DNA of 64,000 nucleotides. Origin: a virus. Every line of letters starts with the position of its first letter. Position 1 is the stretch's first letter. This document shows, piece after piece, positions 348 to 63,966 of this stretch. The stretch lies in the IMG/VR virus record IMGVR_UViG_3300005825_000057, positions 1 through 64,000 of that record; one strand, written 5' to 3'. The notes under the pieces were generated by a model, which did no database searches, had not been told where the DNA came from, and worked only from the letters and a program-made list of their open reading frames with translations. The translations under genes were made by a program, and so were the position numbers.

Positions 348-728
348 TTAGTCTTCTTCATCAACTTCTTTGGGCGGAATCACCATTTCATCCCCCATCC
401 ACAATTCAGAATTAGGGAATTGTTGTTGGAGTTCTTTAAACTCCCCAGCAATAGTAAGTGCCGGTGCCCCTTTTGGACGATGTTTATCAAGTCTTTTTAA
501 AACTGACATCAAGTCAATTTTACAATCATCCTCTAAGTTCTCGGCCCAATTAGAAGCCCAAATTGTCAATATTCTCAATTCATGCCAATTGATTGGCAAC
601 ATAACATCTTGAGAAATTGCCATAGGAATTCCCGGCGTCCCGCAATGAGGACATTTATCGGGATTCAATTCATTTAATTCTTCATCAGAATATTCTGATG
701 CACAACGCAAACAACGTACAGTTTTCAT
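348..728 (-). CDS. Hypothetical zinc-ribbon protein, 126 aa
   Basis: The N-terminus carries two Cys pairs (CLRC at 6-9 and CPHC at 26-29), a classic zinc-ribbon knuckle pair. The rest is an acidic domain rich in Trp and Leu that I cannot place. Its ATG overlaps the TGA of the PolIII-like gene upstream by four bases (ATGA), so the two are probably translationally coupled. It may be a nucleic-acid or protein adaptor; the function is unknown. Confidence 0.7.
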   Translation of the reverse strand: MKTVRCLRCASEYSDEELNELNPDKCPHCGTPGIPMAISQDVMLPINWHELRILTIWASNWAENLEDDCKIDLMSVLKRLDKHRPKGAPALTIAGEFKELQQQFPNSELWMGDEMVIPPKEVDEED

Positions 729-2128
729 GCTGCGAATACCTCTTCGGGCGGAAGTGGGTCCATATTCTTTGGAAATTCCAAAACAATGGAACGTCCACCA
801 CGAGCCTCGCTCATAAAGCGACTAAACAACAATCCCTCAAAGATGGGATCAACATCAGTAATGCCTAAACAATAGCACGTCAAAGCCCCTACAGCACTTC
901 CACGACCGGGACCAACAGCTTGGGTGCCGTCGCCACCCAAAATCTCTTTGCACCAGCGACGAGCCTCATCTGTCATCATTTTTTGAATAAGGAAATAAGT
1001 GCTAAAACCCTTACGAGTAATTAAGCCCAACTCTTCTTTCAAACGATTTACATACTCACGATTTTGAGGAAGATTTCTAGCTTTAAACCCACGCATCACC
1101 TGTTCTTTTAATTTCTCATCAGCATCTGGAAATACTGGCAATTTCAAAGAACGATCAAGCTGTACGCCTTTTGCTCGCTCACAAATCCTAACGGTATTAC
1201 GTTTGGCTTCACAAAACAAATCATAAGGAATAATGTCCTTATAATCTTTGGCCCACTTTTCATTTAATTCTTCTTCTGACTTCATCCACAAGTTTGCATC
1301 TTGTAATTCAAAGAAATCACTGATGCCTTCTTCTTTCATTTTTCTTTCAATATCTTTAACTGTATTTTTGGTTTGCACCATCAACATAAGTCTTTGATAT
1401 TGGCTGTCTTCTTGTTTGCAATAATGACAATCATTTGTAAGAATCAATGGAAGTTTGTATTTGTCGTGAGCTTTGACAATAAAAGCGTCGTATGGTTTTT
1501 GTTTGTTGAAATCCAAGACCATCAATTCCAAGAAGTAATGGTCTTTACCAAACATTTCAACATAGCGTTCAATCATGGCGAAGCCCGCTTCTTCGCCGCC
1601 TTTATCAAATGCTTTTCCGACTTCACTATTGTAGCAACAAGAAGTAAAGAATAAGCCTTCTTTGTATTTGAGAAGTTGTTCGTAGTTGACTCTCGGTTTG
1701 CGATAAAACCCTTTTGTCCAACCCCATGAAGTGAGACGAACCAAATTCTTATATCCGGTTTCGTTATAAGCAATTGCCAGCAAATGTGCGCCTGATTGCT
1801 TGGCTTCAATTTGATCTATCTCGCCAAGTTCAGAGATATATTTTTGCATATCTTTGAGAGACGAGATTTCAGGCTGCAATCGGTTCACATAAAGTTCGCA
1901 AGCAAATATAGGAGAGAGAGCGTCTTTGCCATGTTTGTCACAGATTTTTTCACAGGCTTTAATCTGTCGAGGAACTGCCCCCAACATACCGTGGTCACTA
2001 ATGGTAAGAAATTTCTGATTGATCTGTGTGGCTCGTACAGCATATTCTTCGACCATGCCGTACCCGTCAAGTACGCTAAAATCTGTATGAAGGTGAAGAT
2101 GTTCAAATCCAGTAATTTCAAGCGGCAT
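725..2128 (-). CDS. dnaE: DNA polymerase III alpha N-terminal fragment (PHP domain)
   Basis: This matches the N-terminal part of bacterial replicative polymerase PolC/DnaE. Visible motifs in order: HLHLHTDFSVLDG (residues 10-22, PHP motif 1), ISDHG (about 43-47), CELY (about 76-79), TNDCHY (about 234-239), GFSTYFLI (about 374-381) and the glycine-rich palm entry GPGRGSAVGAL followed by LGITDVDPI. The protein then ends after LLFSRF plus about 25 residues. In full-length DnaE (about 1,160 aa) the next segment carries the catalytic PDFDxDF aspartates; here it reads VLEFPKN, so the active site and the thumb, fingers and C-terminal domains are missing. No intein motif is seen. It could be half of a split polymerase, a stand-alone PHP phosphoesterase, or a decaying gene. 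Confidence 0.85.
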   Translation of the reverse strand: MPLEITGFEHLHLHTDFSVLDGYGMVEEYAVRATQINQKFLTISDHGMLGAVPRQIKACEKICDKHGKDALSPIFACELYVNRLQPEISSLKDMQKYISELGEIDQIEAKQSGAHLLAIAYNETGYKNLVRLTSWGWTKGFYRKPRVNYEQLLKYKEGLFFTSCCYNSEVGKAFDKGGEEAGFAMIERYVEMFGKDHYFLELMVLDFNKQKPYDAFIVKAHDKYKLPLILTNDCHYCKQEDSQYQRLMLMVQTKNTVKDIERKMKEEGISDFFELQDANLWMKSEEELNEKWAKDYKDIIPYDLFCEAKRNTVRICERAKGVQLDRSLKLPVFPDADEKLKEQVMRGFKARNLPQNREYVNRLKEELGLITRKGFSTYFLIQKMMTDEARRWCKEILGGDGTQAVGPGRGSAVGALTCYCLGITDVDPIFEGLLFSRFMSEARGGRSIVLEFPKNMDPLPPEEVFAA

Positions 2129-3306: not shown

Positions 3307-3996
3307 TTATTTCCTTATCTTATCGGCAGTTTCAAATCCTCGACTGCCAATGATTCCATCAGCTAGTCCAAAAAATACAGCCTCTTCAGCACTCAAATTC
3401 CAGTCGCCCAATTTACTCATTCTTTTGTCGATATACGACATAATTTGGACTTCATTCATTTTCTTTGCTTTGAAATACTTTCCGTTAACACAACGGGAGG
3501 CCAAAATCTGTAACATCCTTTTGTTTATTTTCAAATTCCATTTGGCATTTGATTGAACCGTAGATGTATTCCCTTCTAAAGTCACAAACCCCCTGTGAAC
3601 CATTACTTCACAATTGGGAGTCATAACTCTAGTCTTTGCGGCTTGTAAAACAATAACACCCATCGAAGCAACTTCGCCGTAGGCTAGGATGTTGATGGGT
3701 GATTTTGAAAGTTTAATGGCATCATAAATTGCCATCCCACATATCCAATCGCCTCCCGGCGTTTGAAAATGAATCAGGATGCCCTTCTGTTCGACTTTGT
3801 TGAGTATATGAAGATTCTTGATGAATTGAGTCGCCATGCGATATTCAATTCCAGCTTCCTCTTCATCGCTCCCAACTCCAAAATGACTGTGTAAATAAAT
3901 TTCTCTATCGACAATATTCAAATCATAATTATGGACTTGATTCATATAGTCGATCAAGTCCACTTCTGGTTCAGGCTGCTTTTTCTTCGTCGGCAT
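3307..3996 (-). CDS. clpP: ClpP-like serine peptidase
   Basis: A member of the ClpP/crotonase-fold protease family, 229 aa (bacterial ClpP is about 200). All three triad positions are recognisable: Ser in the VASMGV stretch (about residue 110), His in MVHRGF (about 134), and Asp in GDWNLSAEEA (about 198), followed by the family signature AEEAVFFGLADGI. The peptidase is therefore probably active. The N-terminus has a charged extension of about 20 residues before the domain. It overlaps the gene upstream by 26 bases and lies just downstream of SpoVR/YeaH/PrkA. No ClpX/ClpA unfoldase is seen in the window, so the partner may be host ClpX, a phage AAA+ protein, or none. A prohead-protease role is another possibility. 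Confidence 0.88.
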   Translation of the reverse strand: MPTKKKQPEPEVDLIDYMNQVHNYDLNIVDREIYLHSHFGVGSDEEEAGIEYRMATQFIKNLHILNKVEQKGILIHFQTPGGDWICGMAIYDAIKLSKSPINILAYGEVASMGVIVLQAAKTRVMTPNCEVMVHRGFVTLEGNTSTVQSNAKWNLKINKRMLQILASRCVNGKYFKAKKMNEVQIMSYIDKRMSKLGDWNLSAEEAVFFGLADGIIGSRGFETADKIRK

Positions 3997-4327
3997 TAAA
4001 TATATTCACTCTGGTGATTAGGTCATCAAATGCATGTTGTTGACTTTTTTGTTGCACAAAATCAAGTAAAGCCAAGCATTCTCTTAATTCCGATAAAGCG
4101 AAAACATCAACATTATATGAAATAATTACTGAATCGTTTTCGCAAATTTTGGCTAATGCCCGAAGCCTATCTGCAAGATTGTCAAACGAAGGAAAGTCAA
4201 CTTTGTAATTAAGATTCAAAGTATCTCCATCAGAAATAGTAGGAGATTTGCCATTCAAGATGACATCAAGTTCTTCTTGAAGCAATTTAGTTTCTTCGCC
4301 GGGTATTTGTAAATTTATCAACGACAT
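3971..4327 (-). CDS. Hypothetical protein, 118 aa
   Basis: Unrecognised acidic protein sitting between the SpoVR gene (three-base gap) and the ClpP-like gene (26-base overlap), so it is almost certainly part of that transcription unit. No motifs, Cys clusters or membrane segments are visible. Confidence 0.65.
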   Translation of the reverse strand: MSLINLQIPGEETKLLQEELDVILNGKSPTISDGDTLNLNYKVDFPSFDNLADRLRALAKICENDSVIISYNVDVFALSELRECLALLDFVQQKSQQHAFDDLITRVNIFNADEEKAA

Positions 4328-4330
4328 AAA

Positions 4331-5929
4331 TTACCACATATTTTCCATGTGTTGTTTTCTTGTAACACGTCTCACCTTAGATGAATCGTTGCTGAAACAT
4401 TCATAAATGATTTCAGTGCCATCTTCATCTTGAGTGGCCAAAAATACGTCGTTGCCCCAAATAAATCTAAGACCAGTAAGTACATCCTTTACATACGGAT
4501 CATAAAGCTCACGGCCATCTACGCTATGCTGCAAGAGGAAATAACCTTTGCCACGATAATTGGGTTCAACCAACTTAATGTCGGGCAAACCACCATTTAC
4601 ATGGCGTCTCATCAACAAGCCTTTAATTGTCTTGTAATCATGAGATTCAATTCTGGTTTCGCCATTTCCAAATTTCTTCCATTCAAAATATTCCTGTTCT
4701 CGACAGAAATCTTCTGTGAAATATTCATGGATTAACGTCAGGTCGTCATAATATTTTCTTACTTCAAATATCTTTTCTTTTCCTAAACCAGCTTTGGTAT
4801 CCCAATTTTCACGCTTCCGATAATCTCGACATTCTTCCCATTCTGTGCCAAATCGACCTTTATCCCAACGATCACGAATATCCATTAACAGATAAAAGCC
4901 CAGCTTATATGGGTTTGTCGAATACTTCCCGCCCAACACGCCCATTTTATGAGCAGCATATTCAATAATACCACAATCATGGGTTTTCTGGCCAAGTCCA
5001 ACATAACCCTGTTCTGCCATAATTACATGGTCGGTCAACGAGGCCCATCCTTCGTTCAACACCTTAGTTTGGCGTTGTGGGAAGAAATATAAAGACTCAT
5101 CATAAATCATGGAAAGAATATCTTGTTGCCACGGTTTCAGCGGAGCATTATCACGCAAAAACCCAAGAATATCTTTAGTCGGCTCAGCAAACAAATTCAA
5201 TTCATCAGCAAGTTCACGATTTTTAGCTCGTTCGTTTTCAGTCTTCTTGAAATCTCCGGTATTGATATAAGGTTCCATATAAAGACGTTCATTGGAAACC
5301 TTCAACCGACGAGGATGACGATACGTTCTAGCATCTGAAATAATTGGATTTTTAATTACTTTGTGATGCCATGCTTTTGCACCATCAATCAAAGTATCAA
5401 TTCTAAGCAAATAATCCATGAATTCTGTGACACGTTCTTTACCCCAACGATTCATATATTTACGAATACGGGAACCGTGGTTCGCCATATTGTTCAACAT
5501 ATTCGTGTCTGTTGCAGAAAAATGAATATTATTCTTGAAGAAGTCATTGTGGCCGGTTGCATGAGCAATAACGGTCAAATGGTCAAGAAGTGTATTGGAA
5601 CTTAGAAGCCACTGATAACATGGATTGGTATTGATAACCATCTCATATATTTTGTGCATTCCATATTCATAACCACGTTGGAGTTCTTCGTATTCCATAC
5701 CGAAGGACCAATGTGGGTATCTAACAGGAAAGCCACCATAAGCGGCTATTTCTGAAATTTCGTCATATGTTAGTAATTGAACAACTGTAGGATAAAAGTC
5801 GAGTCCCCATTCTTTGCAAGCATGGAGAATGGTTTGTGCCAAATCCCTAAGCTCTTTAGGCAACTGTACTCCGGGGATAGTGTTATCCCCTAGTAAAATT
5901 GAAGACCCATGAAAAAATTTACTCGCCAT
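4331..5929 (-). CDS. spoVR: SpoVR family protein
   Basis: At 532 aa it matches the SpoVR/YcgB family (about 500 aa) along its length, including the conserved block NPYKLGFYLLMDIRDRWDKG (about residues 331-350) and the N-terminal region with WSFGMEYEELQRGYEYG (about 73-89). The biochemical role of the family is unknown; in bacteria it is co-conserved with YeaH/YhbH and PrkA, and it is linked to spore cortex formation in Bacillus and to stationary phase or stress in enterobacteria. A GGAG Shine-Dalgarno lies seven bases before the ATG, and the YeaH gene ends two bases upstream. It is the third core member of the locus. Confidence 0.93.
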   Translation of the reverse strand: MASKFFHGSSILLGDNTIPGVQLPKELRDLAQTILHACKEWGLDFYPTVVQLLTYDEISEIAAYGGFPVRYPHWSFGMEYEELQRGYEYGMHKIYEMVINTNPCYQWLLSSNTLLDHLTVIAHATGHNDFFKNNIHFSATDTNMLNNMANHGSRIRKYMNRWGKERVTEFMDYLLRIDTLIDGAKAWHHKVIKNPIISDARTYRHPRRLKVSNERLYMEPYINTGDFKKTENERAKNRELADELNLFAEPTKDILGFLRDNAPLKPWQQDILSMIYDESLYFFPQRQTKVLNEGWASLTDHVIMAEQGYVGLGQKTHDCGIIEYAAHKMGVLGGKYSTNPYKLGFYLLMDIRDRWDKGRFGTEWEECRDYRKRENWDTKAGLGKEKIFEVRKYYDDLTLIHEYFTEDFCREQEYFEWKKFGNGETRIESHDYKTIKGLLMRRHVNGGLPDIKLVEPNYRGKGYFLLQHSVDGRELYDPYVKDVLTGLRFIWGNDVFLATQDEDGTEIIYECFSNDSSKVRRVTRKQHMENMW

Positions 5930-5931
5930 CT

Positions 5932-7122
5932 TTAAGCTCCACTAGGATCGGCTTTTTTATCGGCACCCATAAGTTTAGCAATTGCATCCAAAATTTGTCT
6001 GTCTCGGTCTTCTTCTGATAAAGCTCCTGAATCAGAAGAAATTTGTGTAGTGCGAATATTCTCGCCATTTATTTCGCCATTCTCAATGGCGGAATCAACA
6101 ACGTGTTTAACGCTTCCATTATACTGGTACGGCATAATCTGGGTAATGCCAACTAAATTTACAGTGTGTGGTTTAAACTCTTCTTTGAGAGTTTCCAAAA
6201 ACAAAGGATTATCGTCGTCCCAATTATCTCCATCAGTAAAATAAAAGACATAGATATTCCACTTTTGTGGAGTATAACGATTTTCAAATTGTTTTGCAAT
6301 AAACTTTAACGCTGAAGAACAGGTCGTTCCACCACCAAATCGGTATTTATAAAACTTTTCTTCATCGACTTCCATAGCCATTGAATCGTGCCATACAAAA
6401 AGTCGATCTACACGCTTATAAAATCTGCGAATCCAAACATCAATCCACCAAGCCATATCTGACACGACATCGCATTTAAACGCATCCATAGAGCCAGAAC
6501 CGTCTCTAGCGTAAATAATCAGGGCATTTGTCGATGGAAATTTAATCTCGTTATATTGACGATAACGCTTGTCTTTTTGAATTGGCTTAATTGTCCGCAT
6601 CGGAGTTGGGCAACCCGGTACAATTTCCAATTGGTCAATTGTCCCCTCGGCAGCTTGACGCTTGAGAGCCTGCAAGAACGTGCGTCGATTATGACGCAAA
6701 GACTCTGGCCCCACCAAAGAAATATTGTTGTATTTGATTTTTACTTCATCAAATGTATCGCTGGGTTTTGGCTTGAGATTTGGAAGTTCTAATTCATCAG
6801 CCAAAAACTTTAATACTACTTCCAAATCCAAATTGATGGTAATACCTTCGGATTCACCCTGACCAGCACGATCTCCCTTGCCCTTGTCGTCACGACCAAT
6901 TACATCGCCGTCTTTGCCGGGGCCACGACCAATACCTTTGTCATTATTCCCGAATGTAATGTGTGGAATATCAATTTTAGGGATTGATATTTGAATTTTG
7001 CCACGTTTGCCACGATTTCTAACAATCTTGCCGCTCTTGATAAACTTTTTCAAAGCCTTACGAAGACGACCAGACACAACATCAATGAAATCTTTGTGAT
7101 CTTCTTCTATGCGTCTTGGCAT
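5932..7122 (-). CDS. yeaH: YeaH/YhbH family protein (DUF444, vWA-like)
   Basis: At 396 aa it matches the DUF444 family (about 380-430 aa). The N-terminal 100 residues are basic and Gly-rich, as in the family. A von Willebrand A-like domain follows, with a MIDAS-type motif DGSGSM (about residues 207-212) and a downstream GGGTTCSSAL block (about 264-273). Bacterial YeaH is part of the YeaG(PrkA)-YeaH-YcgB signalling set. Its start overlaps the preceding small gene by 16 bases with a good AAGGAAGG site, so it is tightly coupled within the operon. Confidence 0.93.
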   Translation of the reverse strand: MPRRIEEDHKDFIDVVSGRLRKALKKFIKSGKIVRNRGKRGKIQISIPKIDIPHITFGNNDKGIGRGPGKDGDVIGRDDKGKGDRAGQGESEGITINLDLEVVLKFLADELELPNLKPKPSDTFDEVKIKYNNISLVGPESLRHNRRTFLQALKRQAAEGTIDQLEIVPGCPTPMRTIKPIQKDKRYRQYNEIKFPSTNALIIYARDGSGSMDAFKCDVVSDMAWWIDVWIRRFYKRVDRLFVWHDSMAMEVDEEKFYKYRFGGGTTCSSALKFIAKQFENRYTPQKWNIYVFYFTDGDNWDDDNPLFLETLKEEFKPHTVNLVGITQIMPYQYNGSVKHVVDSAIENGEINGENIRTTQISSDSGALSEEDRDRQILDAIAKLMGADKKADPSGA

Positions 7123-7358
7123 AAAGCACCTTCCTTTATGTTTTTAAGTTCTGTCTTTAACTTCATGTAATGTAAAAGACAACTTCCAATTGCTTCTTCT
7201 AAATTAAAATATCGTGCTGGGCCAACACTAACCACTGAAGATTCAATACCGGCTGGAAGTTCGACTTTGAAGTTTTCTCCGTCATATTTAATGTTAACAT
7301 AAATCGGCTCTTGGAGAAGAGAAAAACTTTCTTGAATTAAATGTTGAACTTGTGACAT
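7107..7358 (-). CDS. Hypothetical protein inside the prkA-yeaH set, 83 aa
   Basis: Unrecognised small protein, mostly beta-like in the middle (residues 18-45) with a helical C-terminus ending in Cys-Gln-Asp-Ala. The ATG shares bases with the stop of the gene upstream (TAATG) and its end overlaps the YeaH start, so it is embedded in the SpoVR/YeaH/PrkA operon. I know no counterpart in bacterial versions of this operon. Confidence 0.65.
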   Translation of the reverse strand: MSQVQHLIQESFSLLQEPIYVNIKYDGENFKVELPAGIESSVVSVGPARYFNLEEAIGSCLLHYMKLKTELKNIKEGALCQDA

Positions 7359-7579
7359 TATGGATCAATAACCTCAAATACAAAACTCAAATCTCCATCG
7401 TCACTTTCAAAAGTTTTAAGTTTCATATCAAAAAGAAGTTGAGTTTGTTCGTCGGTCAATAAAGCAAATAAATCGCCAAGAGTACCATCATCACTCCATA
7501 CGTCCATTGCCAAAGAATCTATTTCTTTGTGTAAGTCTTTTTTCATTTTAAGATTTAACCAAAAATTACCCGCTAACAT
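7358..7579 (-). CDS. Hypothetical protein downstream of PrkA, 73 aa
   Basis: Small acidic protein with no recognised family. It starts with an AGGGG site upstream and lies just beyond the terminator-like hairpin that follows PrkA (7591-7636), so it may be read from its own promoter or by read-through. It overlaps the next gene by one base (TAATG). Confidence 0.6.
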   Translation of the reverse strand: MLAGNFWLNLKMKKDLHKEIDSLAMDVWSDDGTLGDLFALLTDEQTQLLFDMKLKTFESDDGDLSFVFEVIDP

Positions 7580-7590
7580 TATGCACCCCT

Positions 7591-7636
7591 AAAAAACTGC
7601 CCTACCAGTCAAGCAATCCCCAACTGATAGGGCAGT
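7591..7636 (-). terminator. Intrinsic terminator after prkA
   Basis: On the minus strand the arms ACTGCCCTA and TAGGGCAGT (9 bp) plus an inner CAGT/ACTG pair form a hairpin immediately followed by six T. It lies between PrkA and the two small genes, so it would uncouple kinase expression from YeaH and SpoVR, or act as an attenuator. Confidence 0.85.
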
Positions 7637-7654
7637 GGCGGCTTACATTTTTAA

Positions 7655-9730
7655 TTATTCATCTTCGGCTAAATCGCCACGAGCAAAGATGCCGCCAACA
7701 AAGTCAAGTACGTCTGTAGCGGAACGCTCATTATAACCGTACTGCTTAATCAATCTGGTCTTGATAGCATCAATCTTTTCTTGAATGTCTTTATCAACAA
7801 CAGTTGCACCACTCACATGGAGAGCAGACAACTTAATTGTGTCTTTAACATCCTCGAATAGTTTTGCTTCCAAAGCCTTCTTCAACTTGGCGTTGCTGTC
7901 CCACTTAAACTCTTTGCCCTTGTGGGAAAGATCGCCAATAAAGGCCGCAATTGAACGTCGGAAGTCGTCGGCCCCTTGATCTGGGATGTCGATTTTCGAT
8001 TCAATCTGACGCATCAATCTTTCGTCAGGCTTACGATCTTGACCTGTAATTTGGTCTTTGATCTTCGACTTATTGATATAAGCCATGATGTTGTCGATGT
8101 AATTTCCACACAATCTGATGATTGCGTCTTCATCTCCAACCAAAGCCTTCTGAACTTCAGATTTGAGAATATCTGTCAATTTCTTGACAGCTAAATCAAC
8201 ACACCCGATGTATCGGCCAACTTCGTCCTTGTTATTCAACAAGGAAGAACCTTCCAAGCCTTCACGGATTTCATTCAAGACCATGAACATATTGACATAT
8301 TCATGATTGTTGGCAAGACAGTTAGAAATCTTATCCTGTACATATCGCACAGAAATACCAGTTGTCATGCCTTCGTTGTCATATCGGTCACGAAGCTCTT
8401 TGACTTGTTCCTCAGTCCAACCGGGCAATAGTCTACCATCGTATAGTTCGGCCTTGGCAACCAAGTCAATCTTGCCATCTTTGTCGTCATTAAGACGAGT
8501 CAAAATGGCCCACAAAGCTGCGATTTCCAAAGTATGCGGAGCAACGTGTTGACGAACTCTTTCAGGACCATAATCCTTTTCGAGAATCTTCAATTCCTCA
8601 GACCACTTGAGGGTATAAGGCACGTCAACCTTTACAGTACGGTCACGCAACGCTTCCATATACTGGTTGGAACGCAACTTTTCATATTCTGGATTGTTGG
8701 TGTGAGCGAAGATAGCCTCATCAATTGAAACTTGGCTAAACTTCTTGGGTTTGATGTTTTGTTCTTGAGATGCACCCAACAGGTCATACAAGAATGCCTG
8801 ATCGAGTTTAAGAGCCTCGATGAACTCAATCATTCCACGATTACCAACACAGAATTCGCCGTCGAAATTAAAGCTGCGTGGGTCAGAGTCGGAACCGAAG
8901 TGACTAATACTTCTGAAGTTAATATCACCAGTCAATTCAGTCGAATCTTGGTTCTTTTCATCTTTTGGCTGGAAGGTTGCAATACCGCAACGATCTGCTT
9001 CAGAATAAACTTTGCGAACGACACGGATGTGATTTTCCAAAACTTTTTCAAGATCACCATCGTTTCTCTTGAGAAGTTCATTCATGAAAAACTTGCAGCG
9101 TGGATCAAGTTCCCCATCACATTTAAGATTATACAAATCAATCCGTCGATCTTCGTCAGTCAACTCTCGATGAATATTATTCAATTCAACTAAAAGTGGC
9201 TCACGAATTTCAGGTGGAAGCAACTTCAAGGGTTGCTCATGCATCGGGCAATCGTCTTCAGGATGTGTATAAATACCGTCTACACCCGTTGGAAGATTAA
9301 CCCAGCGGAAAGAATACCAAGCCCCTTCTTCTGTCTTAGAGTAATTCTCTAATTCTCTCTTAAATAATCGGCAGAGAGTTGATTTGGAGCTACCTACAGG
9401 ACCATGCAATAGTAAAATACGCTTCTCAGTACCATAACCCCCCGCAGCACCCCTGATGAATTTCATCAGAGCGTCCTTCGTAGGCGTCAACCCAATAATG
9501 GGATTATGGGGATTATCAAAAAACTTGTAATAGGTATAAGTCTTGCGATACTCTTCCACTTGATAGGTGCCCTTTTCAAGCACCATATCCCAAATCATTT
9601 GCCAAGCATTGCGAATTAGCTTGGGGTTTTTGCAGCACTCATCAACATATTGACCAAAACTCATTTCCGTGTGCAAAACACGGAATTTACTCCGGTCAAA
9701 ATTTCCGAGCAATTTATTCAATGCAGTCAT
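7655..9730 (-). CDS. prkA: PrkA family serine protein kinase (AAA+)
   Basis: Matches PrkA/YeaG (about 630-640 aa in bacteria; 691 aa here). The N-terminal AAA+ domain has Walker A GPVGSSKST (about residues 110-118) preceded by ILLLH, as in the family, and the C-terminal third corresponds to the PrkA kinase-like domain. In bacteria it phosphorylates Ser/Thr targets in stress and stationary-phase signalling. I chose the ATG at 9730 because GGAG lies seven bases upstream and the protein then begins MTALNKLL; an upstream in-frame extension to 9784 lacks such support. It is first in the locus, so the kinase would be made before YeaH and SpoVR, with a terminator hairpin right behind it. Confidence 0.93.
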   Translation of the reverse strand: MTALNKLLGNFDRSKFRVLHTEMSFGQYVDECCKNPKLIRNAWQMIWDMVLEKGTYQVEEYRKTYTYYKFFDNPHNPIIGLTPTKDALMKFIRGAAGGYGTEKRILLLHGPVGSSKSTLCRLFKRELENYSKTEEGAWYSFRWVNLPTGVDGIYTHPEDDCPMHEQPLKLLPPEIREPLLVELNNIHRELTDEDRRIDLYNLKCDGELDPRCKFFMNELLKRNDGDLEKVLENHIRVVRKVYSEADRCGIATFQPKDEKNQDSTELTGDINFRSISHFGSDSDPRSFNFDGEFCVGNRGMIEFIEALKLDQAFLYDLLGASQEQNIKPKKFSQVSIDEAIFAHTNNPEYEKLRSNQYMEALRDRTVKVDVPYTLKWSEELKILEKDYGPERVRQHVAPHTLEIAALWAILTRLNDDKDGKIDLVAKAELYDGRLLPGWTEEQVKELRDRYDNEGMTTGISVRYVQDKISNCLANNHEYVNMFMVLNEIREGLEGSSLLNNKDEVGRYIGCVDLAVKKLTDILKSEVQKALVGDEDAIIRLCGNYIDNIMAYINKSKIKDQITGQDRKPDERLMRQIESKIDIPDQGADDFRRSIAAFIGDLSHKGKEFKWDSNAKLKKALEAKLFEDVKDTIKLSALHVSGATVVDKDIQEKIDAIKTRLIKQYGYNERSATDVLDFVGGIFARGDLAEDE

Positions 9731-9837: not shown

Positions 9838-10182
9838 TTATTTAACTTCGCCCCAATTTTTATCTTTATTCAAATCGTTAATCTTTCTGTATGGAGTAGG
9901 ACCAACGTGCGACTGTTTTTCAGCCGCCGCACGTTGGTCACGAATTCCACCAGCTTTTTCATTTTCGTGTTTGAAACGATAATCATGGCTGTTATTCCAC
10001 CGATCACTGCCAACCGGATTGTCGCCAAAATTAAAATTGCAAAAACCTAATTGTTCGGTTTTTTTCTTTGACTTGCATTTAGGACATTTGCCCTTTTTTA
10101 CATTCTCTTCTTTTTCAGCCATCAAAGACCATATGTCATATACATGCTGGCACTTCTGACATTCAAATTCATATCTTGGCAT
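9838..10182 (-). CDS. FmdB-like zinc-ribbon protein
   Basis: The start at 10182 gives MPRYEFECQKCQHVYD, the typical opening of FmdB-type regulatory zinc ribbons, with CQKC (about 8-11) and CPKC (about 34-37). The remaining 75 residues are hydrophilic and disordered-looking. GAGGAAG precedes the ATG, which overlaps the stop of the gene upstream (TAATG). Likely a small nucleic-acid-binding or adaptor protein. Confidence 0.75.
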   Translation of the reverse strand: MPRYEFECQKCQHVYDIWSLMAEKEENVKKGKCPKCKSKKKTEQLGFCNFNFGDNPVGSDRWNNSHDYRFKHENEKAGGIRDQRAAAEKQSHVGPTPYRKINDLNKDKNWGEVK

Positions 10183-11355: not shown

Positions 11356-11625
11356 ATGAAAACATTTAGTCAATTTTTAGAAGCAAAGAAGATGGTTGCC
11401 GAATCGGAAGATGCAGGCAACGATATTATGAAAGCTGCTACCAATATAGGCCAAAAGAATCCAAAAGCCATTATTGGTGCGACCGCTGTAAAAGAATTAC
11501 CGAATGTAATGAAAGATAAGCAAGCACAAGCTCTAGTCAAACAAGACCCAAAAAATGCTGGAAAGCTAGGCCAAGTTTTAACCGGAGTTGATGCTCAAGA
11601 AATCCAAGACAATCCAACAATGTAA
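11356..11625 (+). CDS. Short protein with F-x-x-F-L-E-A-K N-terminus, 89 aa
   Basis: Begins MKTFSQFLEAKKM, paired with the divergent gene at 11304. The remainder is Ala/Lys/Gln-rich and helical with an NPKAIIGATAVK-type segment. The N-terminus is similar in spacing to T4 capsid-targeting peptides. It is followed 10 bases later by the Cys-rich membrane protein. Confidence 0.65.
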   Translation: MKTFSQFLEAKKMVAESEDAGNDIMKAATNIGQKNPKAIIGATAVKELPNVMKDKQAQALVKQDPKNAGKLGQVLTGVDAQEIQDNPTM

Positions 11626-11635
11626 GGAGATTACA

Positions 11636-11983
11636 ATGGTAAAATGCTGTTGCTTTTTAGGTTCATTTTTAGGTGCCCTGCTAGGCGTAGTTGCCAGTTG
11701 GGTTCTCTGTTTCGCTATGTTCCACCCAAATTGCTGCAATGATAACTGCTGTCACGAAGGCTGTTGCAAGCCTTGTGCCTGCTGTGCTTGTTGCGGTTGC
11801 GACTGCTGCAAAGATAAAGTTTGCAAGTGTTGCGATGATTGCAAGTGTGGAACCGATTGCAAATGCACAGCAGAAAATAAATGCTGTGATGCTTGCAAAT
11901 GCCCGATGCACTGTAACAAGTGCTGTAAAGATGGTTGCTGTGAAAAAGGATGCTGCGAAAAAGGCTGCGAAAATCACAAGTAA
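11636..11983 (+). CDS. Membrane-anchored cysteine-rich protein, 115 aa
   Basis: Starts at the ATG at 11636, which has AAGGAG upstream. An N-terminal hydrophobic segment (about residues 7-28) looks like a membrane anchor or signal peptide. The remaining 85 residues contain most of the protein's 37 Cys, largely as CC pairs with Lys, Asp and Gly between them, plus His. This composition resembles metallothionein-like or disulfide-dense secreted peptides. I recognise no family; metal binding is an inference. It ends 10 bases past the stop of the convergent HldE gene. Confidence 0.75.
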   Translation: MVKCCCFLGSFLGALLGVVASWVLCFAMFHPNCCNDNCCHEGCCKPCACCACCGCDCCKDKVCKCCDDCKCGTDCKCTAENKCCDACKCPMHCNKCCKDGCCEKGCCEKGCENHK

Positions 11984-59916: not shown

Positions 59917-59999
59917 GGGAGTGCTAATGCTGTGGGAAGCTACGCTGGCTGTAACCCAGCCGCCTTAATGGATAAGGGGTTCGATTCCTCACACTCCCA
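59917..59999 (+). tRNA. tRNA-Tyr (GTA)
   Basis: Type II tRNA. Acceptor GGGAGTG/CACTCCC, discriminator A, no encoded CCA. Anticodon arm GCTGG-CTGTAAC-CCAGC gives anticodon GTA. Long variable arm; T-loop TTCGATT. Confidence 0.9.
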
Positions 60000-60012
60000 C
60001 TTGAGAAAAGAA

Positions 60013-60231
60013 ATGAAAGCATACTTGCTGGATAAACGTGGAATAAGCAAAGTATATCTTGTCTTCGGAGAAGATTGTGTCTCTGCTGCCAAGGTACTAG
60101 CTGAAAAGCTAGGTTGTGATTACGAAGATTTTTCAGTAGGTGGTTCATGGGATGTTGACCCGAATGAGCCTATAAATTTAAGTCAACTATGGCCTTATTT
60201 TACAAATGCCCCCGGAAGGCATAGTACATAA
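60013..60231 (+). CDS. Small protein between tRNAs, 72 aa
   Basis: ATG with GAGAAAAG upstream. Alpha/beta-like; SWDVDPNEPINLSQLWPYF in the C-terminal half. No family recognised. Sits between tRNA-Tyr and tRNA-Leu, as do several tiny genes of this island. Confidence 0.55.
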   Translation: MKAYLLDKRGISKVYLVFGEDCVSAAKVLAEKLGCDYEDFSVGGSWDVDPNEPINLSQLWPYFTNAPGRHST

Positions 60232-60239
60232 GGAAAAAT

Positions 60240-60321
60240 GGCCTCGTGGTGGAATTGGCAGACACGCCAGACTCAAAATCTGGTGCCGCAAGGCGTGTGG
60301 GTTCGAGTCCCACCGAGGCCA
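60240..60321 (+). tRNA. tRNA-Leu (CAA)
   Basis: Type II. Acceptor GGCCTCG/CGAGGCC, discriminator A, no CCA. Anticodon arm CCAGA-CTCAAAA-TCTGG, anticodon CAA. Variable arm TGCCGCAAGGCG. Confidence 0.92.
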
Positions 60322-60322
60322 C

Positions 60323-60413
60323 TGGTAGATGGTGGAAGTTAGACACGGCCCCGTGTAGGGGTTGGTAGGCCGATCACCTACCGTGCAGGTATCGAATCCT
60401 GCTCTACCAACCA
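60323..60413 (+). tRNA. Aberrant type II tRNA-like element
   Basis: Acceptor TGGTAGA/TCTACCA followed by discriminator A and an encoded CCA, the only one here with it. Leu-like D-arm (GGTGGAAGTTAGACA), a GGTAGG/CCTACC variable arm, and a T-loop of 8 (TATCGAAT) instead of 7. Anticodon stem GGCCC/GGGTT with a loop CGTGTAG lacking T33; isotype not assigned. Confidence 0.5.
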
Positions 60414-60415
60414 CG

Positions 60416-60488
60416 GGACAGGGAGCTAGTGTGGTCATAGCACTGGACTGAAAATCCAGCAAAATCAGTTCGATTCTGATCCTGTCCA
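60416..60488 (+). tRNA. tRNA-Phe (GAA)
   Basis: Acceptor GGACAGG/CCTGTCC, discriminator A, no CCA. Anticodon arm CTGGA-CTGAAAA-TCCAG, anticodon GAA; T-loop TTCGATT. Confidence 0.92.
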
Positions 60489-60505
60489 CTGTGAAAGGAA
60501 AATTT

Positions 60506-60670
60506 ATGGCTAGATCATTGTGTAAAGACCCAAGTATATCTCAAAAAAACGATGCGAGTTGCATCGGAAATAAACGGGGTATGGCTCGCAGAGCTAAGAG
60601 AAATAGCAACAAAAGGGATCGACAAAAACTAGACAAAGATTTGAAAGAAAGAATTGCACTTGTTCGGTAA
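60506..60670 (+). CDS. Small basic protein, 54 aa
   Basis: ATG with AAGGA upstream. Begins MARSLCKDPSISQ; strongly basic (Lys/Arg) in the second half, with KRGMARRAKRNSNKRDRQK. Likely nucleic-acid binding. A GATGC/GCATC hairpin lies inside the gene. No family recognised. Confidence 0.5.
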   Translation: MARSLCKDPSISQKNDASCIGNKRGMARRAKRNSNKRDRQKLDKDLKERIALVR

Positions 60671-60704
60671 TCCGTTGCATATATACTTCTTAAAAGGAGT
60701 CTAT

Positions 60705-61112
60705 ATGTTTCAAGATACGAACAACACTTTGAATCAAGGCGGCGTTGGGTTAGCGAGGGCGATATATGAGTATCAAAGATTGGGGTACACAGTTTGTTTA
60801 CCTTTAGTTGATGCTCAAGATTACGACCTTGTAATTGAAAAGGATAAAAAGTGGGAGTCTGTTCAATGCAGAACAACTTCTACCAAAGCAAGAAGTAGAA
60901 AAGGCGGATTTATTGATGGTAGGTATGAAGTTAGTTTGAGGACCATAAAAACTAATACAAAAGAGACTACCATTAAAAAGAAAGGTAATTTTGATTTGCT
61001 TTTTGTGATGTGTGATAATGGCGATTGTTATTCGGTGCCGAATAAAGAATTGCCTGAATCTGGCACCACGGTCGGCGGTCCAAAATACGAAAAATACAAA
61101 ATTGGAAGCTAG
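60705..61112 (+). CDS. PD-(D/E)XK-like nuclease ending in a tRNA
   Basis: 135 aa, GVGLARAIYEYQRLGY then DYDLVIEKDKKWESVQCRTT (catalytic D, then E-x-V-Q-C-R in place of the usual Q-x-K), with FDLLFVMC later. Small tRNA-island nucleases are often homing-type. The last nine bases, including the TAG stop (residues ...GS), are the 5' acceptor strand of tRNA-Ser(GCT). AAAAGGAG precedes the ATG at 60705. Confidence 0.6.
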   Translation: MFQDTNNTLNQGGVGLARAIYEYQRLGYTVCLPLVDAQDYDLVIEKDKKWESVQCRTTSTKARSRKGGFIDGRYEVSLRTIKTNTKETTIKKKGNFDLLFVMCDNGDCYSVPNKELPESGTTVGGPKYEKYKIGS

Positions 61113-61192
61113 GCAACTGCTGGTTTGTTGCACCGCTTTGCTAAAGCGGCCCGGTCTAAACCCCGGCGAGGGTTCGATTCCCTTGGCTTCCG
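61104..61192 (+). tRNA. tRNA-Ser (GCT)
   Basis: Type II. Acceptor GGAAGCT/GGCTTCC, discriminator G. Anticodon arm CCGCT-TTGCTAA-AGCGG, anticodon GCT. Variable arm CCCGGTCTAAACCCCGG. Its first bases overlap the nuclease stop codon. Confidence 0.9.
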
Positions 61193-61193
61193 C

Positions 61194-61274
61194 TTGCTCA
61201 AATGCCCGAAGGGATTACATTCTTGAAAAGTGTGTACCGAAAGGTAAACTATCTCTTTATTATTCGTTGAGCAA
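61194..61274 (+). tRNA. tRNA-Ser(TGA)-like element without a T-arm
   Basis: Ends TTGCTCAA/TTGAGCAA pair perfectly. ACATT-CTTGAAA-AGTGT is a canonical anticodon arm with anticodon TGA, and TACC-GAAA-GGTA a small variable arm, but I find no T-arm. Probably a decayed tRNA or a new small RNA. It follows tRNA-Ser(GCT) by one base. Confidence 0.4.
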
Positions 61275-61278
61275 ATAT

Positions 61279-61350
61279 GGATCAGTAGCTTAGATGGCAA
61301 AGCGTCTGTCTGAACAACAGAAGAGTGGAATTCGAGCGTCCATTGATCCA
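61279..61350 (+). tRNA. tRNA-Phe(GAA)-like
   Basis: Acceptor GGATCAG/TTGATCC with a G-T end, discriminator A. Anticodon arm TCTGT-CTGAACA-ACAGA gives GAA, with C at 37, which is unusual for Phe. T-arm TGGAA-TTCGAGC-GTCCA has one mismatch. Isotype moderately sure. Confidence 0.65.
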
Positions 61351-61355
61351 CTTAT

Positions 61356-61434
61356 GGCCTTGTACGCAAACTTATGGCAAAGCGGCTTCTTTCAAAAAGA
61401 AGTGATTTTGTGGGTTCGACTCCCACCAAGGCTA
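61356..61434 (+). tRNA. Leu-type tRNA (CAA), short variable arm
   Basis: Acceptor GGCCTTG/CAAGGCT (G1-T72), discriminator A. Anticodon arm CTTCT-TTCAAAA-AGAAG, anticodon CAA. The variable loop is TGATTTT, seven bases, not the long arm expected of tRNA-Leu; T-arm GTGGG-TTCGACT-CCCAC. Confidence 0.7.
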
Positions 61435-61436
61435 CT

Positions 61437-61637
61437 ATGATGAAATTTTGTGGTGTATGTGGATTTCAATTACAAGGAAAAGGTGTTAAAAGATATAAGA
61501 CCTGTCCTGAATGCGAAGAAAATGCCCGTGTACGCAAATTGGCACAGCGGACTACCTCAGAAGTAGTTGTCTCCCCTTCAACAAGGGATACTGTCGGTTC
61601 GAGTCCGACCACGGGTACTTATGGGAAAGAAAAATAA
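61437..61637 (+). CDS. Zinc-ribbon protein running through a tRNA, 66 aa
   Basis: Starts three bases after the preceding tRNA. First 35 residues MMKFCGVCGFQLQ...CPECEEN carry two C-x2-C pairs, a credible zinc ribbon. The remaining 30 residues are the translation of the whole tRNA-Leu(CAG) gene (61524-61617), and the stop lies beyond it. Either the real stop was lost when the tRNA arrived, or the RNA is both. No family recognised. Confidence 0.5.
   Translation: MMKFCGVCGFQLQGKGVKRYKTCPECEENARVRKLAQRTTSEVVVSPSTRDTVGSSPTTGTYGKEK
61524..61617 (+). tRNA. tRNA-Leu (CAG)
   Basis: Type II. Acceptor GCCCGTG/CACGGGT, discriminator A. Anticodon arm ACTAC-CTCAGAA-GTAGT, anticodon CAG. Long variable arm with CCCTT/AAGGG. 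D-arm TACGCAAATTGGCACAGCGG is shared with the short-arm Leu set. Confidence 0.88.
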
Positions 61638-61785
61638 AAGATATTGTATCCGGGCTAATCCGCCAAAAGGTTGGCAGATATGGGATCGGAAATTGGCAAG
61701 ATGGTGGGGAAATCCTACAAAGGAATTTCCTTATACAGTCTTGCAGAAATTGAATGAAGGAAAGCAGAGTGAATTGAAGTATTAA
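61621..61785 (+). CDS. Small basic Trp-rich protein, 54 aa
   Basis: ATG four bases after tRNA-Leu(CAG). Basic with WQIWDRKLARWWGNP; no family recognised. Ends two bases before tRNA-Leu(CAG) short form. Translation signals are poor (no Shine-Dalgarno). Confidence 0.45.
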   Translation: MGKKNKRYCIRANPPKGWQIWDRKLARWWGNPTKEFPYTVLQKLNEGKQSELKY

Positions 61786-61787
61786 AT

Positions 61788-61867
61788 GGCCGGGTACGCA
61801 AACCTAATGGCAAAGCGGCGAAGCTCAGAACTTCGTGATTTTATGGGTTCGACTCCCATCCCGGCTA
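61788..61867 (+). tRNA. Leu-type tRNA (CAG), short variable arm
   Basis: Acceptor GGCCGGG/CCCGGCT (G1-T72), discriminator A. Anticodon arm CGAAG-CTCAGAA-CTTCG, anticodon CAG. Variable loop TGATTTT; T-arm ATGGG-TTCGACT-CCCAT. Second of the short-arm Leu set. Confidence 0.7.
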
Positions 61868-61869
61868 CT

Positions 61870-61984
61870 GTTTAATTTGGTGTAACGGTAGCATTCCCCC
61901 GGAAGGGGCAAGAACGGTTCGACTCCGTATATTAGTGTAACGGCAGCACAGAAATGAGGATCGGTTCGACTCCGAAAATTAAAC
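61870..61984 (+). tRNA. Tandem-duplicated tRNA-like element
   Basis: Ends GTTTAATTT and AAATTAAAC pair perfectly, but between them are two tRNA bodies in tandem: D-arm GTGTAACGGTAGCA and T-arm CGGTTCGACTCCG, then D-arm GTGTAACGGCAGCA and the same T-arm again. The first has a possible anticodon arm TCCCC-CGGAA-GGGG (loop short; CGG?). It looks like an internal duplication of a tRNA. Isotype not assigned. Confidence 0.4.
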
Positions 61985-61991
61985 AATTTAT

Positions 61992-62067
61992 GGCCTTATA
62001 CGCAAAATGGCAAAGCGGCTTGTTTTAAAAATAAGTGATTTTGTGGGTTCGATTCCCACTGAGGCTA
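61992..62067 (+). tRNA. Leu-type tRNA (TAA), short variable arm
   Basis: Acceptor GGCCTTA/TGAGGCT, discriminator A. Anticodon arm CTTGT-TTTAAAA-ATAAG, anticodon TAA. Variable loop TGATTTT; T-arm GTGGG-TTCGATT-CCCAC. Third of the short-arm Leu set. Confidence 0.7.
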
Positions 62068-62080
62068 CTATCCACCCAAT

Positions 62081-62162
62081 GGCCCCGTGGTGGAACCGGC
62101 AGACACGCTGGACTTAAAATCCGGTGCCTTCGGGCGTGAGGGTTCAAATCCCTCCGGGGCCA
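62081..62162 (+). tRNA. tRNA-Leu (TAA)
   Basis: Type II. Acceptor GGCCCCG/CGGGGCC, discriminator A, no CCA. Anticodon arm CTGGA-CTTAAAA-TCCGG, anticodon TAA. Variable arm TGCCTTCGGGCG. Confidence 0.92.
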
Positions 62163-62168
62163 CTTTTT

Positions 62169-62256
62169 GGAAGCTAGGTCAGATGTTGGTTCGCTGCACC
62201 TGTCTTGAAAACAGGACCGGGTAAAACCGGCGAGGGTTCGATTCCCTTGGCTTCCG
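62169..62256 (+). tRNA. tRNA-Ser (TGA)
   Basis: Type II. Acceptor GGAAGCT/GGCTTCC, discriminator G. Anticodon arm CCTGT-CTTGAAA-ACAGG, anticodon TGA. Variable arm ACCGGGTAAAACCGGC. Confidence 0.92.
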
Positions 62257-62258
62257 CT

Positions 62259-62370
62259 TGCTACAAATGCAAATTAGGAGTACATTGACAAAAGTAAAGT
62301 CGTCGGGCAAAACCCGATATATGTGGGTATCGAATCCCACTGTAACCTCTTGGTTAAATTCGTTGTAGCA
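62259..62370 (+). tRNA. Aberrant tRNA-like element with extra 3' hairpin
   Basis: Ends TGCTACAA/TTGTAGCA pair perfectly. Inside: an AATG/CATT D-like arm, a variable arm TCGGG-CAAAA-CCCGA, and T-arm GTGGG-TATCGAAT-CCCAC (8-base loop). Between the T-arm and the 3' end is an additional TAACC-TCTT-GGTTA hairpin, which no standard tRNA has. Isotype not assignable. Confidence 0.45.
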
Positions 62371-62376
62371 TTTTTT

Positions 62377-62458
62377 GGAAGATAAGCGAATGGTTAGCGG
62401 TCACACTGGAAATGTGATGCCCCGCAAGGGGTTGCGGGTTCGAGTCCCGTGTCTTCCG
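62377..62458 (+). tRNA. tRNA-Ser (GGA)
   Basis: Type II. Acceptor GGAAGAT/GTCTTCC, discriminator G. Anticodon arm TCACA-CTGGAAA-TGTGA, anticodon GGA. Variable arm TGCCCCGCAAGGGGT. Confidence 0.92.
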
Positions 62459-62472
62459 CTGGGAGAAAATAA

Positions 62473-62700
62473 ATGGTCACTGTAAAAATTGTTGGTCCCG
62501 GTTTGGTTGTGAATAAACCGGCTGCGATAATTTACAAAGCATTGACTGAGGCTGGTTACAAAGTTGATCTTGAAGAATTTGCTGGACAACATCAGTATGT
62601 TCCAAAAGACGAATGGCCAGAGAAAGAATTAGTTGATACAGAACGCCAAAAGGGTATGGAAGTCAAAGTGGATGTTGATCCACTCCCTTGGGGCGGATAA
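62473..62700 (+). CDS. Hypothetical protein, 75 aa
   Basis: GGGAG precedes the ATG. VTVKIVGPGLVVNKPA start, acidic middle, no motif. Ends one base before tRNA-Ser(GGA). Confidence 0.5.
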   Translation: MVTVKIVGPGLVVNKPAAIIYKALTEAGYKVDLEEFAGQHQYVPKDEWPEKELVDTERQKGMEVKVDVDPLPWGG

Positions 62701-62701
62701 T

Positions 62702-62790
62702 GGAGAGTAGGCAAATACTGGTTTGTTGCATCTGATTGGAAATCAGACCCGGTTTAAAACCCGGTGAGGGTTCGATTCCCTTGCTCTCCG
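62702..62790 (+). tRNA. tRNA-Ser (GGA), second copy
   Basis: Type II. Acceptor GGAGAGT/GCTCTCC, discriminator G. Anticodon arm TCTGA-TTGGAAA-TCAGA,  anticodon GGA. Variable arm CCCGGTTTAAAACCCGG. Confidence 0.9.
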
Positions 62791-62794
62791 CTCG

Positions 62795-62905
62795 CACAGA
62801 TGAAGGGCGTTCCCCTTAAATGAGAAATTGGCATCGAGGGCCAGTGAGCCGTAAGGCGAAGGGCCGGGGCTATGTGGGTTCGAGTCCCATCGCCTTTCAT
62901 CTGTG
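62795..62905 (+). tRNA. Aberrant tRNA-like element with long terminal stem
   Basis: CACAGATGAAGGGCG and CGCCTTTCATCTGTG pair over 15 bases with one G-T, twice the normal acceptor. A T-arm GTGGG-TTCGAGT-CCCAT is canonical, an ATG/CAT D-like arm is present, and a GGGCC...GGGCC arm with GCC-GTAA-GGC stands where the anticodon or variable arm would be. No anticodon found. Confidence 0.4.
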
Positions 62906-62926
62906 TTTTTATAAGTAGGGAAGCTA

Positions 62927-63127
62927 ATGCACGCCAAAGTTTTTTATACTTTAGGGCAAAGAGATACGATTGCCGGTCTTTTTGCTATGATAAGATCAAA
63001 AGGAATAAATTCGACTTTGGCAGAACTTGCGGCTGAATATACTAAAGCATTTGATGAACCAAATCCCCATGTGGAATGGTGGATAAAACAAAATGAAAAG
63101 AAAGAAGATGTAGTTGAAAATGGATAG
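62927..63127 (+). CDS. Hypothetical protein ending in tRNA-Tyr, 66 aa
   Basis: AGGGAAG precedes the ATG. Alpha/beta-like: GQRDTIAGLFAMIRSKGIN, then an acidic tail NEKKEDVVENG. Its TAG stop lies inside the 5' acceptor strand of the next tRNA (63122). No family recognised. Confidence 0.5.
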   Translation: MHAKVFYTLGQRDTIAGLFAMIRSKGINSTLAELAAEYTKAFDEPNPHVEWWIKQNEKKEDVVENG

Positions 63128-63204
63128 GTTGAGCAATTGGCTGGCTCGCCAGACTGTAAATCTGGTCCCTTCGGGGCATGTGGGTTCGAGTCCCACCCTA
63201 TCCA
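63122..63204 (+). tRNA. tRNA-Tyr (GTA), second copy
   Basis: Type II. Acceptor GGATAGG/CCTATCC, discriminator A. Anticodon arm CCAGA-CTGTAAA-TCTGG, anticodon GTA. Variable arm CCCTTCGGGG. Confidence 0.92.
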
Positions 63205-63213
63205 CTGGTTTTT

Positions 63214-63291
63214 GGCTGGGTACGCAAACTTCGGCAAAGCGGCCACTTCGAGAGAGTGGTGATTTTGTGGGTTCGACTCCCATCCCAGCTA
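63214..63291 (+). tRNA. Leu-type tRNA (GAG), short variable arm
   Basis: Acceptor GGCTGGG/CCCAGCT (G1-T72), discriminator A. Anticodon arm CCACT-TCGAGAG-AGTGG, anticodon GAG, with C instead of T at 33. Variable loop TGATTTT. Fourth of the short-arm Leu set. Confidence 0.6.
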
Positions 63292-63293
63292 CT

Positions 63294-63521
63294 ATGCATA
63301 AGAATTATTACAACCACGATGAATCTGAGAAACATTATCGAAGACATATATCAAACCTTGCGTACCGATATAAATTTAAGGTAATTTACGAAGACGAAAG
63401 AATTTTGAAGAAAGAGAATGGCGAAACAACAGTAATTGTGGATATAACAGAAACACCCCGCAATACTTTATGTTGGAAGGCTTGGCTCAAACTTCAAAAT
63501 GAATACGAAAATGGATTCTGA
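63294..63521 (+). CDS. Small basic protein, 75 aa
   Basis: ATG directly after the tRNA. Begins MHKNYYNHDESEKHYRRHI, aromatic and basic. No family recognised, no Shine-Dalgarno. Overlaps the next gene by about 11 bases. Confidence 0.45.
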   Translation: MHKNYYNHDESEKHYRRHISNLAYRYKFKVIYEDERILKKENGETTVIVDITETPRNTLCWKAWLKLQNEYENGF

Positions 63522-63696
63522 AAAGATCGTGATTGATACACAAGAAAAACTTTTGGAACACTTTGGGAAACCAGAGAAAGATTTTTTTGGTATATCTGGT
63601 CTTTATATGGATTCATTAGAGAATGGACGAAGAATGCAATCGAGGATGGTGGATAACTATTTAAGATTGATATTTAAATTACAAAATGGAAGCTAG
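63511..63696 (+). CDS. Hypothetical protein ending in tRNA-Ser, 61 aa
   Basis: ATG at 63511 (63499 also possible). Helical, charged, no motif. The stop (AGC-TAG) lies inside the acceptor stem of tRNA-Ser(CGA), the same arrangement as the nuclease at 61112. Confidence 0.45.
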   Translation: MDSEKIVIDTQEKLLEHFGKPEKDFFGISGLYMDSLENGRRMQSRMVDNYLRLIFKLQNGS

Positions 63697-63774
63697 GCAG
63701 ATGTTGGCTTGCTGCACTTGTCTCGAAAACAAGACCGGGTAAAACCGGCGAGGGTTCAATTCCCTTGGCTTCCG
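63688..63774 (+). tRNA. tRNA-Ser (CGA)
   Basis: Type II. Acceptor GGAAGCT/GGCTTCC, discriminator G. Anticodon arm CTTGT-CTCGAAA-ACAAG, anticodon CGA. Variable arm ACCGGGTAAAACCGGC. Confidence 0.92.
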
Positions 63775-63966
63775 CTGGGCACTAAAAGTGTCGTTCAAAA
63801 AAGTAAACTATTTCATGTAGAAATAAACTTGCTCCGACACAAAAACAAGAAAGGGCAATTAGAGGGTAGAAATTAAAGTGTAAAAATCCCCAACCCAAAA
63901 ATAAAAAAATCCATGCTATAATTTGTATTTTTCTCATACACTATTGTAGTATATAATGAAGAAAAT

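Follow-up and report, generated by a model that had tools for sequence, protein, structure and literature searches.

Why should a phage carry the genes of a bacterial stress operon, and which of the genes found beside them belong to the system? The question is raised by a 64,000-nucleotide stretch of viral DNA (hereafter, the window), in which genes for PrkA, YeaH and SpoVR stand together on the minus strand with two small genes between PrkA and YeaH and a gene for a ClpP-family peptidase beyond SpoVR. PrkA-YeaH-SpoVR is widespread in bacteria, and its biochemical function is not agreed on. An original prediction, made from the letters of the DNA, took five genes as the unit and suggested that PrkA and ClpP might cooperate. 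The window does contain a true phage-borne copy of the known, poorly understood bacterial stress operon. We hold, with a probability of about 0.5, that this operon was acquired long ago and has been maintained intact as a unit of three genes, in which an AAA+/vWA remodelling machine would act together with SpoVR, ClpP being a separate matter.

The window comprises bases 1–64000 of the 101,533-base IMG/VR virus record IMGVR_UViG_3300005825_000057. This record is probably a fragment, and because the window covers only part of it, a gene missing from the window has little meaning.

Conservation and origin of the three-gene unit

PrkA, the two small genes, YeaH, SpoVR and ClpP all lie where the original prediction had placed them, with the families identified by Pfam. 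The features of the locus are as follows, dN/dS being the ratio of nonsynonymous to synonymous substitution, vWA the domain type of YeaH, and MIDAS its metal ion-dependent adhesion site:

7655..9730, minus strand: PrkA, 691 amino acids; AAA+ domain and PrkA C-terminal domain (PF08298, PF06798, PHROG 22605)
7596..7636, minus strand: terminator-like hairpin after PrkA; 18-pair stem and T-run, minimum free energy -35.3 kcal/mol, z -5.3; kept in relative L010
7358..7579, minus strand: small gene, 73 amino acids, function unassigned; present in 28/80 IMG/VR loci
7107..7358, minus strand: small gene, 83 amino acids, function unassigned; nearest relatives only, dN/dS 0.36 against L010
5932..7122, minus strand: YeaH (DUF444, YhbH-like), 396 amino acids; vWA domain with complete MIDAS (PF04285, 3.2e-60)
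4331..5929, minus strand: SpoVR, 532 amino acids; invariant H123, H127, E278 and E293 (PF04293, 5.5e-109)
3971..4327, minus strand: small gene, 118 amino acids, between SpoVR and ClpP; nearest relatives only
3307..3996, minus strand: ClpP-family serine peptidase, 229 amino acids; S111-H134-D190 (PF00574, 8.1e-27), dN/dS 0.039 (a rough value)
9838..10182, minus strand: zinc-ribbon protein directly upstream of PrkA (PF09723); present in 73/90 sequences searched
725..2128, minus strand: N-terminal half of a split DnaE, a conserved downstream neighbour; PHP domain and start of DNA_pol3_alpha

A gene related to the window PrkA was found in at least 129 IMG/VR stretches, and 80 of these loci were fetched and compared. 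PrkA, YeaH and SpoVR occur together in 76; the remaining four end too early to tell, and the three genes are thus a co-conserved set, as had been proposed, in 76 of the 76 loci long enough to show them all. The usual order is a gene for 205 amino acids, one for 97, the zinc-ribbon gene, PrkA, the 73-amino acid gene (optional), YeaH, SpoVR, ClpP (also optional), a gene for 78 amino acids and DnaE. The proposed five-gene unit did not survive this comparison. The 83-amino acid gene is confined to the nearest relatives, the 73-amino acid gene occurs in 18 of 48 distinct loci, and ClpP follows SpoVR in 25 of the 60 loci whose sequence extends 2 kb or more beyond SpoVR (19/35 distinct); many homologous phage loci therefore lack the small genes or ClpP, the very outcome that had been named beforehand as speaking against the idea. 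The opposite case is provided by relative L202 (5223–7113), where ClpP and the flanks are kept, and the stretch from the zinc-ribbon gene to ClpP lacks precisely the three genes. L202 is 85% identical to L200 across ClpP, and no PrkA was found elsewhere in its 73-kb record. Because PrkA, YeaH and SpoVR are constant, whereas the small genes and ClpP vary from locus to locus, we read the unit as one of three genes.

The suggestion that such genes occur in other large phages also proved sound. Annotated phage records with PrkA include those of Thermus phages and of four uncultured phages of ca. 600 kb (LR756511, LR745206, LR756502 and LR756504), and Ralstonia phage RsoM2USA has been reported to encode SpoVR and PrkA (PMC8504454). 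PrkA is likewise annotated in Enterobacter phage LAU1, whose yeaG/yeaH genes were considered as phage cargo; they stand at the end of the record and resemble host flanking sequence, and were not counted.

The bacterial comparison set consisted of the 80 nearest PrkA loci (49–54% identical), mostly from Planctomycetota, Myxococcota, Bdellovibrionota and Chloroflexota. All three genes are present in 54 of them, and in the PrkA tree a supported branch separates the main phage group from the sampled bacterial group. These data fit an early transfer of the complete operon to the huge-phage lineage, its direction and donor being inferred.

No confident family match was obtained for the 73- and 83-amino acid genes in Pfam, PHROG and NCBIfam profile searches. 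Both look coding, judging by their retention in L010, the nearest relative, at 78% and 63% identity respectively and by the dN/dS of the latter; like the 83-amino acid gene, that for 118 amino acids is limited to the nearest relatives. Against L010 the dN/dS values of PrkA, YeaH, SpoVR and ClpP are ca. 0.04, although synonymous sites are near saturation and the values are consequently rough. The terminator proposed to follow PrkA is indeed a strong hairpin (7636–7596); it is conserved in L010 and not in most relatives, and the gap between PrkA and YeaH in relatives is often 7–40 nucleotides.

Protein families, conserved residues and inteins

The window PrkA matches the AAA_PrkA family (3.7e-73) followed by the PrkA C-terminal domain (2.3e-71), and possesses an intact Walker A motif, GPVGSSKS (K116), in which G110, P111, G113, K116 and S117 are invariant, the lysine in 87 of 87 PrkA sequences. 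It also matches the solved structure 9xip/9xiq/9xir, described as a "serine protein kinase", at E 1.9e-203. The earlier description of PrkA as a stress kinase holds as far as the AAA+ PrkA family is concerned; the kinase label is doubtful. Whether PrkA has kinase or protease activity is disputed, and neither was detectable in the purified Bacillus anthracis protein (PMC13001217). That the phage PrkA is a serine protein kinase phosphorylating host proteins during infection is accordingly an unlikely explanation, even though Escherichia coli YeaG has been reported to act as a kinase in vitro, and complementation fails with its K426A mutant (PMC4664914); besides the B. anthracis result, the position of K426 is occupied by Asp in 81 of 87 phage PrkA proteins, with a conserved Lys next to it. 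The mapping of K426 onto phage PrkA is ambiguous by one residue, and the catalytic lysine is not assignable.

YeaH scores above the PF04285 cut-off, and its MIDAS residues (D207, S209, S211, T266 and D297) are invariant in 42 phage and bacterial sequences; the predicted structure matches vWA folds (E 3e-7). SpoVR matches PF04293 across the protein with 365 bits against a cut-off of 27, while its C-terminal domain (PF24755) scores 25.4 bits, slightly below the cut-off of 27.6. H123, H127, E278 and E293 are invariant in 45 phage and bacterial SpoVR sequences. The conserved His and Glu residues are placed on helices in the structural model (mean predicted local distance difference test score 81.5), and may form a metal site, making SpoVR a putative metalloenzyme. 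Its identity as a zincin metallopeptidase was considered and rejected, a significant zincin fold match being absent (best PDB E 0.63). When the model was compared with BFVD the single significant match was a 617-amino acid protein, the length of the SpoVR open reading frame of Thermus phage phiLo.

In many relatives inteins interrupt SpoVR at two sites, after N100 (N100/T101) and after A296 (A296/S297, NEGWA motif), in 15 and 16 loci, or in 9 and 7 of 50 distinct full-length proteins; these counts rest on motif and length to identify the sites, Pfam intein domains being checked in L018 and L027. LAGLIDADG and intein-splicing domains were found in the SpoVR inteins checked. Examples are L018 (13295–17401), L016, L027 and L062, with one or two inteins each, and no report of inteins in SpoVR was found in the literature searched. 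The PrkA of L200 (2–3076) bears an insertion with intein-like ends (C...HN/S) just before the FNFDGEF motif, and that of L203 (2–3073) has a frame of similar extra length. Inteins are usually located in conserved active-site motifs, and the sites may therefore point to active-site positions in SpoVR and PrkA; for SpoVR they would offer an independent pointer of this kind. Intein insertions are also present in two DnaE N-terminal halves (L034 17355–19949; L068 16692–18503).

ClpP is independent of the three-gene unit

ClpP belongs to the S14 family (PF00574, 94.7 bits, E 8.1e-27), and the complete catalytic triad that had been read from its translation is confirmed: none of Ser111, His134 and Asp190 varies among 21 family members, the assignment of Asp190 as the third residue being by alignment. 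The protein falls far short of the ClpP equivalog TIGR00493 (65 against a cut-off of 308.6 bits), and its docking cleft appears from alignments to be noncanonical, the usual Tyr being replaced by an invariant His76. Other genes of 210–335 amino acids occupying the ClpP slot were examined as diverged ClpP; they gave no ClpP profile match, and those that were read did not resemble it.

The suggestion that PrkA feeds ClpP as a new AAA+ protease, with the small genes perhaps as adaptors, now seems highly improbable. It has in its favour the adjacency of ClpP and SpoVR, seen in 45 of 80 loci retrieved by ClpP as well as in those already counted, the strong purifying selection on ClpP and the altered cleft. 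Against this, the distribution of ClpP requires at least seven changes on the PrkA tree, the three-gene unit persisting throughout (a few loci cut by contig ends being counted as lacking ClpP); L202 has ClpP without the unit; the same ClpP family stands directly before TerL in another phage group, with the unit not nearby; PrkA contains no IGF-type loop, motif or insertion linked to the presence of ClpP; and no ClpP lies within 7 kb of any of the 80 nearest bacterial PrkA genes. The premise that no Clp ATPase is present is correct for the 101.5-kb record, where no ClpX was found, and fails for longer relatives. Seven related phages encode ClpX above both NCBIfam ClpX cut-offs, in which the ClpP-docking tripeptide is IGF or MGF, and ClpX, ClpP and PrkA are found together in four records (G004, G005, G023 and G024; docking loop read in the first two). 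On account of the tree changes, L202, the TerL context, the ClpX of relatives and the lack of an IGF-like motif in PrkA, ClpP is separate from PrkA, an accessory and optional gene. It would most likely form a ClpXP-type protease with a phage-encoded or host ClpX. A variant in which the PrkA-YeaH machine drives ClpP in lineages without ClpX, with SpoVR as substrate selector, would be a new type of AAA+ protease, and we think it scarcely credible.

Might ClpP instead be the prohead (head maturation) protease, its position beside SpoVR being incidental? Its best PHROG matches are head maturation proteases, and there is the related ClpP before TerL. This seems improbable when set against the location of the window ClpP outside structural clusters, the many relatives without ClpP, and the ClpP-bearing G008 (L062) and G009 (L075), which also encode a T4-type prohead protease of family S77, these being relatives and not the complete genome of the window phage. 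The group with ClpP before TerL (L241 2547–12639 and ca. 20 similar loci) is a separate one, whose gene order is fixed and comprises HNH and ERCC4 nucleases, ClpP, TerL and head-like genes.

Proposed function and comparison with known systems

On the reading which we favour, PrkA would form an ATP-driven AAA+ ring and YeaH would be its vWA/MIDAS cochaperone, recruiting clients; SpoVR would be a metal-dependent enzyme or adaptor acting on, or activated with, the remodelled client. Most likely the output would be the continued functioning, through a long infection, of host cells that are starved or grow slowly, or of a phage process. The same arrangement, an AAA+ ring next to a vWA protein, is seen in the MoxR-vWA pairs of jumbo phages, which have been proposed as chaperone-cochaperone systems (PMC7824862).

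Several observations weigh against this reading. The client, the metal and the activity of the unit are all putative. PrkA matches AAA_PrkA, with no MoxR-type family (AAA_3) in the Pfam listing, and the SpoVR model gave no significant fold match in the PDB, the best having a probability of 0.06. Several long records with ClpP showed no ClpX, among them G009 (320 kb), G025 (343 kb) and G007 (259 kb). Lastly, the three genes of the Thermus phages Lalka8 and Lalka27a are flanked by the portal/minor-head genes and TerL, within the head and packaging cluster, which points to virion assembly and not to host physiology. Because of this placement the main rival remains a virion-assembly chaperone, in which PrkA-YeaH would remodel structural proteins and SpoVR would help to process them; the MoxR-vWA pairs of jumbo phages and of the virus ATV have likewise been linked to virion assembly (PMC7824862). 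We consider this possible, though doubtful. In the window and its clade the neighbours of the unit are genes for replication and nucleotide metabolism (DnaE, RecA-like, single-strand-binding-like, DnaB-like and ThyX; several of these names come from reading translations) and not structural genes; many bacteria have the operon, which is tied there to stress responses; and L202 has lost the unit from this place.

In most of the phage clade (window 725–2128; L046, L186–L189, G001–G012) the neighbouring DnaE is encoded by two genes, the break falling immediately ahead of the catalytic PDxDxDF motif. Its N-terminal half ends near SEARGGRS and the C-terminal half is a separate gene of ca. 830–920 amino acids further along; by frame length DnaE is unsplit in G010, as it is in LR756511. 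Elsewhere in the window there are fifteen tRNA genes (59917–63775), mainly for Leu, Ser, Tyr and Phe with duplicated anticodons, and an open reading frame (11588–11983), overlapped by others in different frames, for a putative, very cysteine-rich protein of 131 amino acids.

With all three genes retained, their neighbours freely lost and inteins tolerated in PrkA and SpoVR, the phage lineage represents a natural minimal system. The phage comparison delimits the three-gene unit, marks the residues that matter and separates the unit from ClpP; the conserved sites and inteins make its biochemistry testable.

Compared with the bacterial operon (yeaG/yeaH/ycgB; prkA/yhbH/spoVR), the phage unit shares the three families, the Walker A and MIDAS residues, and the gene order of most of the nearest bacterial relatives; it differs in adjoining DnaE and the zinc-ribbon gene, in its extra accessory genes and in the inteins of some relatives. 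Thermus phages phiYS40, TMA, phiLo, Lalka and MN1 likewise carry PrkA, YeaH and SpoVR together, but in the order YeaH-SpoVR-PrkA, with PrkA merely 27–32% identical and no adjacent ClpP annotated. Phage LR756511 (595 kb) resembles the window in order and upstream genes, with PrkA 67%, YeaH 53% and SpoVR 57% identical; unlike in the window, its PrkA and YeaH are separated by other small genes, the slot holds no ClpP and DnaE is unsplit, with ClpX and another ClpP-like gene elsewhere in the genome. ClpXP has in common with the window phage a ClpP-family peptidase with a complete triad and, with its relatives, a ClpX bearing IGF or MGF, while the window ClpP is far below the equivalog cut-offs and has an altered docking cleft. 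The MoxR-vWA pairs of jumbo phages are alike in that an AAA+ ATPase adjoins a vWA protein, plus a possible hydrolase (PMC7824862), whereas in the window the families are PrkA and DUF444, and SpoVR is a separate protein.

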